Of a DNA stretch of 64,000 nucleotides, positions 14,061 through 18,708 are shown piece by piece. This DNA is from Cytophagales bacterium (lineage in GTDB: Bacteria; Bacteroidota; Bacteroidia; Cytophagales; 172606-1): NCBI GenBank assembly GCA_030446715.1, contig JAUJMU010000002.1, positions 132,499 to 196,498 of the forward strand. Reading direction: 5' to 3'. The notes below the pieces were generated by a model, which was not told the origin of the DNA, made no database searches, and saw only the letters and a program-made list of their open reading frames with translations. The translations under genes were made by a program, and so were the position numbers. Every line of letters begins with the position of its first letter. The first letter of the stretch is position 1.

Positions 14061-15779
14061 ATGCCCCTTCAGGAGCATCAGCGTGAACAATTCTGGAAAA
14101 CCCTGCACCAGCTGGCAATCACCGGCCGGGAAATTTCCCTGTACTTCCGGGCCACGGTGGGTACCTACCACGGTCTGCCGCTGGCTTTTCTGGAAGATAA
14201 TTTCCGGCAGCCGCGTCTGCGGGTTACCGATCAGGCGGCTTCCAAGGCCCAAAGTCTCCCCGAGCCGCACAAAACGGCTTTTTTGAAGGAATACCTGAAA
14301 AACCGGCTTTTTACCCTTAGTGCCGCCTGCCACAAATATTTCGGACCCCTGTACCGTTCATCCCGGGGCACCCACGCCTACAATCCTTTCGCGGATTTGC
14401 TGCTCAGGCGGTCCGAGGTAGAACCGGCCCTGCCCGGCCTGACGGAATCCGTTCTTTATGGCGAATACATCAAGGTTGACTCTCTGATGGCCCTGACGGG
14501 CGGCTTCTCCCGGTCCGAGGCAGCCAGTGAAGACTTGCCAGCCTACGCTGCACCGACCATTTATCCGCTTAACCAGATCCTGTACGGCCCTCCGGGTACG
14601 GGCAAAACCTACCACACCATTACCTGCGCCGTGGCCATTGTGGAAAACCGGCCCCTTGAACAGGTGGCTCGGGAGCCAAGGAATGTCATTATGAGGCAGT
14701 ACGAAAAATACAAGGAAGCCGGCCAGATCAACTTTATCACCTTTCATCAAAGCTACGCCTACGAAGATTTTGTGCAGGGCCTGCGACCCGACGCCCATTC
14801 CGGTGCCGATACGCTGAGGTTCAGGCTGGTGGACGGCGTATTCAAAAAACTGGCCGATGTTGCCAGGGCCAACTACGAAGCCTACCAGCAGGTAATCCGC
14901 CAGCCCCGGCTCCCCTTTGAATCTTTGCTGGACCAGATGCTATCCCAACGCATGAACCGCGAAACGGAGGAAGTAGAATTGCCGGTTGCGCTAACCGGCG
15001 TGGGTCAGTACAAGTCCATGATCATCTATGAGGTCGGTGACACGTACCTGAAATACAAACGCCGCAGTCTCCGCAATGCGGTCAGGGAAGAAGAAAGGCT
15101 GCTTTCGCTGCACAAGCTGAAAGATAAGTTTGAAGGCCGCGAGATACGGGAAGCCATCAGCAAGCCGTACTATGAGGCCGTCACCGAAGCCATGGGGGAG
15201 GTGCAGCGCAATACGGTATTTACCCGCGATGGCAGCCAGCTCCGCAGCTATGTCCTGATCATTGACGAGATCAACCGGGCCAATATTTCTCGGGTGTTCG
15301 GGGAGCTGATTACCCTGCTCGAAGAGGATAAGCGGCTGGGCGGGGAAAACGAACTGACCGCCACTCTGCCATCGGGTGAGGTTTTTGCGGTGCCGCCCAA
15401 TCTGTTTGTGGTGGGCACGATGAATACAGCCGATAAATCAGTGGCCCTGCTGGATGTGGCCCTCCGCCGGCGTTTCACTTTCGTGCCCCTTTACCCGGAC
15501 TATGCGCTGATTCCGGCCTTTGAACCGGTACTGAAACCTCTGAACGAAAAAATCCGCGAACGGAAGGGCACTGACTTCCTGATCGGCCACTCCTACTTTA
15601 TCGGCAAAAGCATTGCCGACCTGCCGCAGATTTTTAACCAGAAAATTATCCCGCTGCTGTACGAATATTTCCAGAACCGCCCCGAACCGGTGCGCGAACT
15701 CCTCTCCGCTGCCGGCCTGCCGGTAACCGAACAAAACTTCCAGTGGCGCGTGACTGCCGTGCCGAAGGAAGAATCCTGA
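14061..15779 (+). CDS. McrB-like AAA+ GTPase, orphan (no McrC)
   Basis: Resembles the nucleotide-driven subunit of McrBC modification-dependent restriction enzymes. Residues 1-165 form an unrecognised N-terminal domain, possibly DNA-binding. The AAA+ part has Walker A GPPGTGKT (about 175-182), the McrB-specific FITFHQSYAYEDFVQGLRP, Walker B VLIIDEINRANISRVFGEL (about 398-416), the signature MNTADKS (about 453) and DVALRRRF with the arginine finger. McrC, the PD-(D/E)xK nuclease that normally follows, is absent: the next gene is DinB-like, 93 bp away. It may be a lone McrB, or it may work with a distant nuclease. An EVE-domain gene lies two genes downstream. Confidence 0.9.
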   Translation: MPLQEHQREQFWKTLHQLAITGREISLYFRATVGTYHGLPLAFLEDNFRQPRLRVTDQAASKAQSLPEPHKTAFLKEYLKNRLFTLSAACHKYFGPLYRSSRGTHAYNPFADLLLRRSEVEPALPGLTESVLYGEYIKVDSLMALTGGFSRSEAASEDLPAYAAPTIYPLNQILYGPPGTGKTYHTITCAVAIVENRPLEQVAREPRNVIMRQYEKYKEAGQINFITFHQSYAYEDFVQGLRPDAHSGADTLRFRLVDGVFKKLADVARANYEAYQQVIRQPRLPFESLLDQMLSQRMNRETEEVELPVALTGVGQYKSMIIYEVGDTYLKYKRRSLRNAVREEERLLSLHKLKDKFEGREIREAISKPYYEAVTEAMGEVQRNTVFTRDGSQLRSYVLIIDEINRANISRVFGELITLLEEDKRLGGENELTATLPSGEVFAVPPNLFVVGTMNTADKSVALLDVALRRRFTFVPLYPDYALIPAFEPVLKPLNEKIRERKGTDFLIGHSYFIGKSIADLPQIFNQKIIPLLYEYFQNRPEPVRELLSAAGLPVTEQNFQWRVTAVPKEES

Positions 15780-15827
15780 TTTTTAATTTGACTACCTCCC
15801 TTTTATTTCTGACTGAACTGTTATAAA

Positions 15828-15862
15828 TTAGTTGTCGTAACTATTATATACAAAACAACTAA
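15828..15862. promoter_or_regulatory. Candidate MarR operator before the DinB-EVE-MarR operon
   Basis: Two overlapping symmetries lie 11-45 bp before the DinB start. TAGTT-gtcgt-AACTA covers 829-843 of the 15 kb block (15829-15843). TTAGTTGT (15828-15835) is mirrored by ACAACTAA (15855-15862). MarR dimers bind such short AT-rich palindromes, and the operon's last gene encodes a MarR protein, so autoregulation is a reasonable inference. Confidence 0.5.
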
Positions 15863-15872
15863 ATCACATCTT

Positions 15873-16403
15873 ATGGACTCACAGGAGATGCTCAGAAAAT
15901 TCAACAAAAATCTAAGTGTCTGGGAAATGGACCTGCAGAATTATTCCGAAGAACAGTTGCGGCAACAGCCAGCCGCTGAAAGCTGGTCCATCGGGCAGGT
16001 ATATGCGCACCTGACGGAAGGAACGCTGCGCTTTCACCTGAAGCAGGTAAATAATTGCCTTTCAAGCCTTGCCGGGCAGGGTAAATCAAAAACCTTCCCC
16101 GGCCGGATGGCTTACTGGCTGGGCCAGTTTCCGCCCATCCGGATAAAAGTGCCGGCTTCACCCGAGTACACGCCGGTCCAGCCAGCCGGTATAACCCAGA
16201 TCCGCGAACGGCTGGATGTGCTGAAAGAGGAAATGACGAAGACTGCCACACGGCTCCAATCTGTCCGGGAAAGCGGTAAGACGAAGCACCCGGCGTTTGG
16301 CTACCTCGATGCCCGGGAGTGGTACCAACTGATTGACATGCACTTCCGCCATCACCTGCGGCAGAAAAAAAGACTGGATCAATTCTTAAAGCAAAACGCA
16401 TGA
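15873..16403 (+). CDS. DinB-family (DinB_2) protein
   Basis: A 176-residue four-helix-bundle protein of the DinB/YfiT superfamily, whose members bind a metal through three His and often act as thiol transferases. Visible elements are the WSIGQVYAHLTE segment with the first His (about residue 47) and the C-terminal HFRHHLRQKKRL with the H-x3-H pair. Its stop overlaps the next gene's start by 4 bp (ATGA-type coupling), so it is translated together with the EVE gene. The substrate is unknown; a detoxification role fits the MarR partner. Confidence 0.85.
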   Translation: MDSQEMLRKFNKNLSVWEMDLQNYSEEQLRQQPAAESWSIGQVYAHLTEGTLRFHLKQVNNCLSSLAGQGKSKTFPGRMAYWLGQFPPIRIKVPASPEYTPVQPAGITQIRERLDVLKEEMTKTATRLQSVRESGKTKHPAFGYLDAREWYQLIDMHFRHHLRQKKRLDQFLKQNA

Positions 16404-16822
16404 ACTACTGGATCATAGTAGCCTCCCGCGACCACCTGATGCGGGGCGTGGAGGGGGGCTTTTGTCAGGCAAATCATGGAAAAAGGGCTCCTCTGGCCCG
16501 TATGTCGGCTGGTGACCGCGTGCTTTTCTATTCGCCCAAAGAGCGGTACGGCTTTGCGCAGCCGCTTCAGCAGTTTACGGCCATTGGTCAGGTAAAAGAC
16601 GACGATATTTACCAGGCGGAGGTAAGTCCGGACTTCAAAGCCTACCGCCGGGATGTTGTATTCTTCCCCTGTAAACCCGTTGCCATCCGGCCGCTGATTG
16701 AGCGGCTTGCCTTTATTGGCAATAAATCCGCGTGGGGGTTTGTTTTCCGGCGGGGCTTCTTCGGGGTACCGGAAGCTGACTTTACTCTTCTCTCAAAACT
16801 GATGCTGACCAATGAAAAATGA
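16400..16822 (+). CDS. EVE-domain protein
   Basis: A 140-residue stand-alone EVE domain (PUA-like fold). It opens with the family's NYWIIVASRDHLMRGVEGGF and continues through QANHGKRAPLARMSAGDRVL, with WGFVFRRGFF near the end. EVE domains contain an aromatic cage for modified bases in DNA or RNA and are found in modification-dependent restriction and in RNA biology. The gene overlaps the preceding one by 4 bp and the following one by 11 bp, so it is the middle gene of a tight three-gene operon. Its ligand cannot be predicted. Confidence 0.9.
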   Translation: MNYWIIVASRDHLMRGVEGGFCQANHGKRAPLARMSAGDRVLFYSPKERYGFAQPLQQFTAIGQVKDDDIYQAEVSPDFKAYRRDVVFFPCKPVAIRPLIERLAFIGNKSAWGFVFRRGFFGVPEADFTLLSKLMLTNEK

Positions 16823-17264
16823 AACTGTTTTTTCTTTCCGGCAACCGGAGGAAAGTTCGGGTTACCTGCTGTGGCAACTGACCATGCTCTGGCAGCGGAA
16901 AATGAAAGCCGGGCTGGATAAACTTGACCTGACCCACACTCAGTTTGTGCTGCTTGCCGCCCTGCAATGGCTGTCCCAGCATCAGGAAGTTGTCACGCAG
17001 AAGGACATAGCGGCTCACGCCAACGTGGATAAAATGATGACTTCCAAAGTGATCCGCACCCTGCAGGCGAAGGAACTGATCAGGCGGCAGGAACACGAGA
17101 CCGATACACGGGCCAAAACAGTGGCCCTGACGCCGGCCGGTGCCGCTTTGCTGAAGGACGCCCTGCGGGTAGTGGAAAACATTGACAAGCACTTTTTTAG
17201 TCTGCTGGAAGACGGAGGGCAGACTTTCAACCAGATTGCGCTGAAGCTGCTGAAGCAGAAATAG
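16812..17264 (+). CDS. MarR-family transcriptional regulator
   Basis: A 150-residue winged-helix regulator. The recognition region runs [40 protein letters not shown] and [20 protein letters not shown]. The R-x-x-x-x-D-x-R-A wing and L-T-x-x-G are the classic MarR signature. It is the last gene of the DinB-EVE-MarR operon (11-bp overlap) and lies 106 bp before an MFS efflux pump, a common MarR target. A palindrome in the operon promoter is the likely binding site. Confidence 0.93.
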
Positions 17265-17308
17265 GCAGAAACCTCCGGGCGAATGGGTAAATTGCGAAGC
17301 TTTACAAA

Positions 17309-17352
17309 GGCTGAATGGCTGGTGGCCGGAAGGTTACTTAAGCCATTCAGCC
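17309..17352. repeat. Hairpin between MarR and MFS genes
   Basis: ggctgaatggct (17309-17320) is perfectly mirrored by agccattcagcc (17341-17352), with a 20-base loop. The flanking aaccatat (17357-17364) is shared with the larger hairpin after the MFS gene, so both belong to one intergenic repeat family. Confidence 0.7.
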
Positions 17353-17370
17353 ATACAACCATATCCATCC

Positions 17371-18594
17371 ATGTCCGCTCAACCAAAAGCTGCCTTAGGA
17401 TTCATTTTCATTACGCTGCTCATTGACGTTACCGGCATTGGCATTATCATTCCGGTGCTGCCCAGACTGATCAGCGAACTGACCGGGGGAAACCTCAGCG
17501 AAGCCTCCCGGTACGGCGGCTGGCTGATGTTTGCCTACGCCATCATGCAGTTCCTTTTTTCGCCGGTGCTGGGTGGCCTCAGCGACCAGTTCGGTCGCCG
17601 CCCGGTGCTGCTGCTTTCCCTGTTTGGCTTCGGACTCGATTACCTGCTGCTTGCCTTTGCCCCCAACATCGGCTGGCTGTTTCTGGGCCGCCTGCTGGCC
17701 GGGGTGATGGGTGCCAGTTTTACGACTGCCACGGCGTACATTGCCGACATCAGTACGCCCGGGAAAAGAGCCAGGAATTTCGGAATGGTCGGCGTGGCTT
17801 TTGGGCTTGGCTTCATCATCGGACCGGTGCTGGGCGGCGTACTCGGGCAATTTGGCTCCCGGGTTCCCTTTCTGGCAGCAGCCGGCCTCACTTTCCTCAA
17901 CTGGCTGTATGGTTACCTTGTGCTGCCCGAATCGCTGGCCCCGGAGAACCGGCGGCCGTTCAACTGGCGGCGGGCCAATCCGGCCGGCTCTCTGGCACAG
18001 CTGAAAAAATACCCCGTTATCACCGGGCTGATCGGGTCGCTGATATTCATTTACATCGCCGGTTACGCGACGCAAAGCACCTGGACGTATTTTACCATGG
18101 AGCGGTTCGGCTGGGACGAAAAGTGGGTGGGTTATTCACTTGGCTTTGTGGGCCTGATGGTTGCCATTGTACAGGGCGGTCTGATCGGAGTGGTGGTGCC
18201 CAAACTAGGGGCCGAACGGGCAGTTTATACGGGTCTGCTGCTTTATTCGGTGGGCTTTATACTCTTTGCCTTTGCCAGCCAGAGCTGGATGATGTTTGCC
18301 TTTATTATTCCCTACGCCCTGGGTGGCATTGCCGGTCCTTCCCTGCAGGGGATCATTTCGGGTCAGGTACCTCCCAACGGGCAGGGCGAACTGCAGGGGG
18401 CCCTTACCAGCCTGATCAGCCTCACCAGCATCGTCGGTCCGCCGCTGATGACCAACCTTTTCGCTTTTTTCACCGGCCGGAGTGCACCGCTCTATTTCCC
18501 GGGAGCCCCCTTTCTGATGGGTGCCGTCCTGACGCTGGTCAGTGTCTTTCTGGCAAAAAGATCCTTCACCCGGACGAGGAGCAGAACTTCGTAA
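17371..18594 (+). CDS. TetA-like MFS drug/H+ antiporter
   Basis: A 407-residue major facilitator with 12 predicted helices. Motif [18 protein letters not shown] lies after helix 2. The drug-antiporter motif [13 protein letters not shown] lies in helix 5. The opening [21 protein letters not shown] is typical of the TCR/Tet-type 12-helix exporters. It exports small hydrophobic compounds against protons. Position after a MarR operon suggests shared control, but a hairpin separates the two and no separate operator was found. Actual drug specificity cannot be told. Confidence 0.93.
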
Positions 18595-18708
18595 AGCAGT
18601 CCTGAATATGTATCAATTGGAGACAGTTCCTTACCGGAACCAGCTGACAGCAAACGGGTTATAAAGGCTTAATTGTTCTGACAAATGAGGTTGTACTTGA
18701 ATAGCTGA

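Follow-up and report, generated by a model that had tools for sequence, protein, structure and literature searches.

Three-component systems in which an EVE-domain protein is encoded together with a MarR or a YafY regulator were predicted in 2020 by Bell, Wolf and Koonin (PMC7641849, section 8). In the MarR–EVE systems, the two genes form a putative operon with one small gene, most often for an SRPBCC protein, EhpR or another VOC protein, and the predicted role is ligand-activated antibiotic resistance. As far as that section describes them, the EVE–MarR systems of the literature are known from gene neighbourhoods alone, and it reports neither an operator nor MarR operons lacking EVE, both of which are described below. 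A literature search found no paper combining an EVE domain, DinB and MarR, or UPF0310 with MarR, and nothing nearer than PMC7641849 was among the matches listed.

The DinB superfamily also includes proteins of described function. BstA–H of Bacillus subtilis are metal-dependent bacillithiol transferases of the STL (DinB/YfiT) type with three conserved histidines; across these eight Bacillus bacillithiol transferases no other residue is fully conserved (PMC5815605). A parallel is known from Mycobacterium smegmatis, in which DinB_2 and DUF664 genes are governed by the WYL regulator SiwR. SiwR binds to the promoter region of these genes, and a 19-bp imperfect palindrome is located there; the controlled genes rise under genotoxic stress, and in some Actinobacteria a glyoxalase-like gene lies upstream of siwR (PMC10693628).

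The locus considered here lies in a window of 64,000 nucleotides, the whole stretch of DNA that was analysed, from a Cytophagales genome. Like the published MarR–EVE systems, it includes EVE, MarR and one small gene in a putative operon. Unlike them, it has a DinB_2 gene as the third component; the word DinB is absent from the main text of PMC7641849 (supplements aside). Since EVE–MarR with a third small gene had already been predicted in section 8 of that paper, the locus represents an already described kind of system. The preliminary description had suggested a defined stress response that could not be named; the idea of a defined response is supported, and a name for it exists in the published predictions. 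The locus also differs from the SiwR case, in which the regulator is a WYL activator of divergent genes that binds single-stranded DNA, with no EVE in the passages of that paper on the system.

Organization of the operon

The first gene (15873–16403, forward strand) encodes a 176-aa protein of the DinB_2/STL superfamily (Pfam DinB_2, 46.7 bits). It is followed on the same strand by a gene for a 140-aa EVE-domain protein (16400–16822; Pfam EVE, 58.3 bits) and by a gene for a 150-aa MarR-family regulator (16812–17264; Pfam MarR, 47.2 bits), all three scores being above the Pfam cut-offs. The DinB and EVE reading frames share 4 bp, and the EVE and MarR frames share 11 bp. Together with an EVE–MarR overlap in 44 of 52 loci (with mechanically called starts), this bears out the earlier proposal of one translationally coupled operon, and the three genes and both palindromes of that proposal were found where it had placed them. 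The EVE protein reached 170.9 bits with NCBIfam model NF002616 (PRK02268.1-2; cut-off 139), which assigns it to the small free-standing type whose solved relatives are named UPF0310, and it matched PH1033 with an E-value of 3.6e-6. The 93 bp preceding the first ATG contain 26% GC, against 54% for the window. Scans for sigma-70 promoters and terminators gave matches at chance level, and no Rfam match was found at gathering thresholds in positions 15000–18700.

In the DinB protein, the histidines H46, H157 and H161 are kept in 20, 20 and 21 of 22 aligned sequences, respectively, the window included. It thus shares with BstA–H the superfamily and a histidine triad, a comparison made without direct alignment to the Bst proteins; unlike the window DinB, those enzymes are not mentioned as being under MarR–EVE control in the relevant passages of PMC5815605. 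The score with the NCBIfam YfiT transferase model was 12.9 of 160 bits, below the cut-off. Thiol transferases of this superfamily fold as four-helix bundles; the predicted structure of the window protein is helical and of low confidence (pLDDT 55.5), and a profile search against solved structures gave weak hits only, to a restriction-enzyme subunit (E 0.026) and to TTHA0303 (E 0.033). The same genome encodes BshC (420.2 bits, cut-off 265.8), so bacillithiol may be made in the host. Based on these sequence features, a metal-dependent thiol transferase is a possible function of the DinB protein.

The structural model of the MarR protein is of high quality (pLDDT 93.4). Its best Foldseek matches were MepR, BpsR and MexR, with E. 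coli MarR and HosA lower; these solved regulators share its fold at 20–26% identity. Their operators and targets differ from those of the window MarR. At a threshold of 1e-20, the MarR subfamily occurs in 34 of 390 genomes of the order, some of which hold MarR proteins identical or nearly identical to those of Thermoflexibacter ruber, Emticicia and Spirosoma utsteinense.

Operator and recognition helix

When the upstream regions of the related loci were aligned side by side, one common block emerged, the 33-bp sequence TTGTTGTCGnnTATAnTATATTTGCGACAACAA, referred to below as the class-A operator. With at most two mismatches over its 14 arm letters, it precedes 32 of the 95 loci analysed (the window and 94 others), 18 of them with an exact copy, compared with 0.65 per shuffled set. 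One further exact operator, that of L018, lies farther upstream. The site in the window is a diverged copy: a probable MarR operator with the arms TTAGTTGT (15828–15835) and ACAACTAA (15855–15862) separated by 19 bp, the 33-bp core extending over 15829–15861. By itself, the wide palindrome is weak, given that arms of at least 8 bp appeared in 27 of 500 letter shuffles of the 93-bp intergenic stretch. It becomes significant because it is conserved in relatives at the identical 19-bp spacing. The window arms differ from the operator of the relatives by two mismatches over the 14 arm letters, a level reached by 48 of 20,000 dinucleotide shuffles of the 93 bp. Moreover, the mismatches mirror each other, position 2 having A instead of T and position 32 having T instead of A, a pair that the window alone shows among 45 sites.

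The 45 class-A sites comprise 40 loci with a DRMMVSK helix, the window, L109–L111 and L073. The last of these, a DPMTTS locus with a two-mismatch match over the whole upstream stretch and no promoter box, was dropped as a chance match, which leaves 44 unique loci of the MarR subfamily with the window and 43 without it. Within 37 of the 45 sites there is a TAnnTTTG box, which we take to be the Bacteroidota −7 promoter element, and the dyad axis falls on its first T. Even the shorter TAnnTTT is absent from two of the sites, the window's own and that of L073, and from no others. At the corresponding place (15845–15852, forward strand), in register with the consensus of the relatives, the window has the degenerate −7-like box TATATACA, where most relatives have TATATTTG.

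With one mismatch allowed, the operator pattern was found in five of 395 genomes of the phylum, including the host genome, and always before an operon of the same MarR subfamily (in L111 the MarR gene is cut by the end of the locus, and the MarR of G395 was seen in L018). The host genome of 6.4 Mb has a single exact operator site. Allowing as many as two mismatches gave no sign of a wider regulon in this genome, with 47 hits against 68 in the reversed control.

The preliminary description had also pointed to a narrower palindrome, TAGTT-N5-AACTA (15829–15843), within the left side of the operator. It is exact in one of 51 upstream regions, that of the window, and was rejected as the operator for lack of conservation. 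Up to two mismatches were seen in 22 of the 51 regions (shuffle mean 12.8, maximum 20), an excess that we attribute to the right-hand arm of the wide operator, visible in many such hits. Thus, of the two palindromes put forward as operator candidates, the wide pair is retained, with its spacing conserved in relatives, and the N5 palindrome is not.

The recognition helix of the window MarR is presumably a 12-residue stretch of the DKMMTSK class. Helix and operator classes were tabulated for 77 unique MarR proteins within 1.7 kb, leaving out five duplicate rows (L065, L114, L115, L131 and L136), and no crossed cell was found, although the rows are related and not independent. The class-A operator accompanies D(R/T)MMVSK helices in 39 of 43 cases, and L018 becomes the fortieth by its farther-upstream site. 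Class B, with TAAGTATACTTA-like sites, goes with 14 of 22 DPMTTS helices. Among six MarR proteins with a D(K/R)MMTSK helix, three have class C (TAGTAGTC-N2-GACTACTA) and one, that of the window, has class A, while none of six proteins with other helices has a recognised operator. In total, 20 of the 77 loci lack a recognised operator (four DRMMVSK including L018, eight DPMTTS, two DKMMTSK and six others); the reversed-sequence control gave two class-A, no class-B and no class-C sites in 77. L123 and L125 are exceptions in which DTMM replaces DRMM and the arms look altered on visual inspection. The agreement should be taken more as descriptive than as a blind test, since the patterns for classes B and C were derived from the very loci that were counted.

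In sequence, the half-site of the window, TAGTTGTCG, falls between TTGTTGTCG and TAGTAGTCG. Phylogenetically, the window MarR forms a single row that groups with the clades of classes A and C (support 80/94); we are unsure of its exact place, as it forms a long branch. The conserved operator, the single site in the host genome and the helix match suggest that MarR acts at this operator, and it probably binds positions 15828–15862 and represses its own operon. The conserved operator offers a direct handle for designing footprinting, reporter assays and screens for inducers. Natural pairs for a specificity experiment are DRMM with TTGTTGTCG, DKMM with TAGTTGTCG or TAGTAGTCG, and DPMTT with TAAGTATACTTA. 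The operator can also be used to find more effector genes, including those in operons without EVE.

It may be added that the compact second operator class, TAGTAGTC-N2-GACTACTA, was observed upstream of VOC genes in L135, L137 and L078, where the helix is DKMMTSK or DRMMTSK followed by VxQTL. Genome G014 has both a VOC–MarR pair with the class-A operator and an SRPBCC–EVE–MarR operon of the DPMTTS type (L119 and L003).

Exchange of the first gene

EVE homologues are sparse, being present in six of 118 genomes of the order and in 10 of 395 genomes of the phylum (the host genome is in both counts). In the scan of named genomes with the EVE alignment, the best 80 of 113 candidates were analysed (L022–L101). 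At least 52 of the 95 loci, the window included, have EVE followed on the same strand by a MarR of the same subfamily, a minimum set by the analysis of the best 80 of 113 candidates. The 51 other loci include two duplicates, L004 and L065. Crude gene calling lost EVE in L005, L043, L052 and L078, and another ORF displaced MarR in L053; L053 and L078 do have MarR behind EVE but stand outside the 52. Most record titles name Bacteroidota, with a few metagenome-assembled genomes labelled Chloroflexota, Dependentiae or Saccharibacteria. Given the 52 loci, the EVE–MarR gene order is conserved. In L053 and L071, both from Chloroflexota metagenome-assembled genomes, the EVE reading frame is longer at the N-terminus, with the EVE domain starting at residues 79 and 115, and in L071 the DNA before EVE reads by eye like the start of an SRPBCC gene.

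The gene before EVE varies. Based on Pfam annotation of representatives, spread to the others by similarity, it encodes a VOC protein in 25 of the 52 loci, an SRPBCC protein in 11, DoxX in five and a flavodoxin-fold protein in three. L018 has NmrA behind VOC, L048 has a Lumazine_bd_2 gene with the operator between it and EVE, five loci have none by gene calls, and one, the window, has DinB. This survey agrees with section 8 of PMC7641849. Relatives with the class-A operator mostly have VOC as the first gene, and a Mucilaginibacter locus combines a WYL regulator, EVE and AHSA1. Judging by gene content, then, the first gene is exchangeable. EVE also appears dispensable to this type of operon and can be missing: L109, L110 and L111 have the operator and no EVE at the locus (two VOC–MarR and one VOC–NmrA–MarR), and the EVE search of 395 phylum genomes gave no match in these three genomes.

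No locus examined other than the window had DinB in the first slot, and a DinB profile search of 1945 ORFs from the collected loci revealed no other DinB behind an operator. A DinB search of six named genomes at 1e-5 also gave no match, a result without evidential weight. Among the 118 relatives of the order, 31 have a DinB homologue, and the genome of the window is the only one to have both DinB and EVE homologues. Therefore, as to gene order in relatives, the expectation of conservation held for EVE–MarR (52 loci) and failed for DinB, which is not a constant part of the unit. Both the conserved operator and a DinB gene in the first-gene slot look new.

Several loci have DinB-like genes in other positions. 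L075 has a separate one 925 bp upstream of VOC. Among the plasmid records with an EVE match, 13 of 44 were inspected; five Priestia plasmids (L161, L163, L165, L166 and L167; positions about 1651–2926) have a MarR–rhodanese–EVE arrangement, in two of the five with a divergent DinB gene beside it. In L061, a DUF1706 gene is located behind MarR; DUF1706 has been placed within the DinB structural superfamily (PMC4773401), and hhalign found no likeness between this protein and the window DinB. None of the inspected plasmid records, L075 or L061 has DinB behind the operator.

Proposed working of the operon and competing explanations

The anatomy of the operon, the conserved operator, the helix–operator match, the single exact site and the exchange of cargo could be read from the sequences themselves; for binding, repression, ligand release, the DinB chemistry and the role of EVE, we infer the following. 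The locus would be a self-contained, auto-repressed detoxification operon controlled by MarR at the 33-bp operator, with an exchangeable first-gene effector, a reading to which we give a probability of about 0.7. A MarR dimer (or two dimers) on the operator straddling the core promoter would shut off dinB–eve–marR. A small-molecule ligand of MarR would free the operator, allowing expression of the three genes as a single, translationally coupled unit. The DinB/STL-family metalloprotein would most likely conjugate, with bacillithiol, or hydrolyse the inducing electrophile or antibiotic, thereby neutralising the ligand of MarR or compounds related to that ligand. EVE would probably recognise a modified base produced or left behind by the insult.

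The nature of the signal bears on whether MarR is a ligand-released repressor at all. It could instead be an activator or a thiol-redox sensor of the OhrR/YodB type: the OhrR model matches the window MarR weakly (40.8 bits, cut-off 200), and one or more core cysteines occur in 27 of 82 family members. However, redox regulators of the OhrR type have a reactive cysteine near the N-terminus, whereas the window MarR contains no cysteine in the whole protein, and 55 of the 82 members have none in the core. The operator of the relatives spans the −7-like box, which is the position of a repressor and argues against an activator. We consider an activator or redox sensor very unlikely. The stress sensor of the preliminary description should accordingly be qualified: since the window MarR has no cysteine, a bound ligand is more likely than a thiol switch.

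A still more improbable explanation is a modification-dependent defence unit in which EVE reads modified DNA and is linked with the McrB-like AAA gene upstream. This ATPase gene adjoins the operon at 14061–15779 (PRK11331, 115 bits, far below the cut-off of 637), and, under one of its headings, PMC7641849 treats EVE as a domain that gives modification-dependent restriction systems their specificity. The operator, however, separates the McrB-like gene from DinB; protein BLAST (1e-5) found no McrB homologue in the 1.5–3 kb flanks of the other loci, and PADLOC was negative for both DinB and EVE. It is also conceivable, though we think it unlikely, that the locus is a MarR–EVE ligand-response system as published and that DinB is a chance passenger between operator and EVE with no role. 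Its restriction to the window among the loci examined, and the lack of any other of the 118 order relatives with both homologues, are what such a passenger would predict; as first-slot DinB comes from a single genome, the gene may have taken this position recently and neutrally. Against this, DinB occupies the place of the other effectors, 10 bp behind the operator and with a 4-bp overlap into EVE; its reading frame is intact, and all three histidines of the metal triad are present.

A broader and tentative picture, which we consider rather unlikely, may also be drawn. The constant unit would be MarR and its 33-bp operator, a chassis spreading through Bacteroidota and taking up exchangeable antitoxic effectors while helix and operator co-evolve. 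In the window it would have taken up DinB, which with EVE might answer a nucleobase-damaging electrophile or antibiotic: MarR would sense it, DinB destroy it and EVE find the modified bases.

Downstream of MarR by 106 bp begins a gene for an MFS efflux pump of a Tet(A)-like branch (17371–18594, forward strand; NF012174, 339.9 bits, below the cut-off of 475). Between the two genes lies a 12-bp perfect inverted repeat, ggctgaatggct/agccattcagcc (17309–17320/17341–17352), without a T run. It is uncertain whether the pump belongs to the operon. In Chryseolinea serpens (L055), a 64% identical MFS pump is encoded divergently near EVE–MarR.
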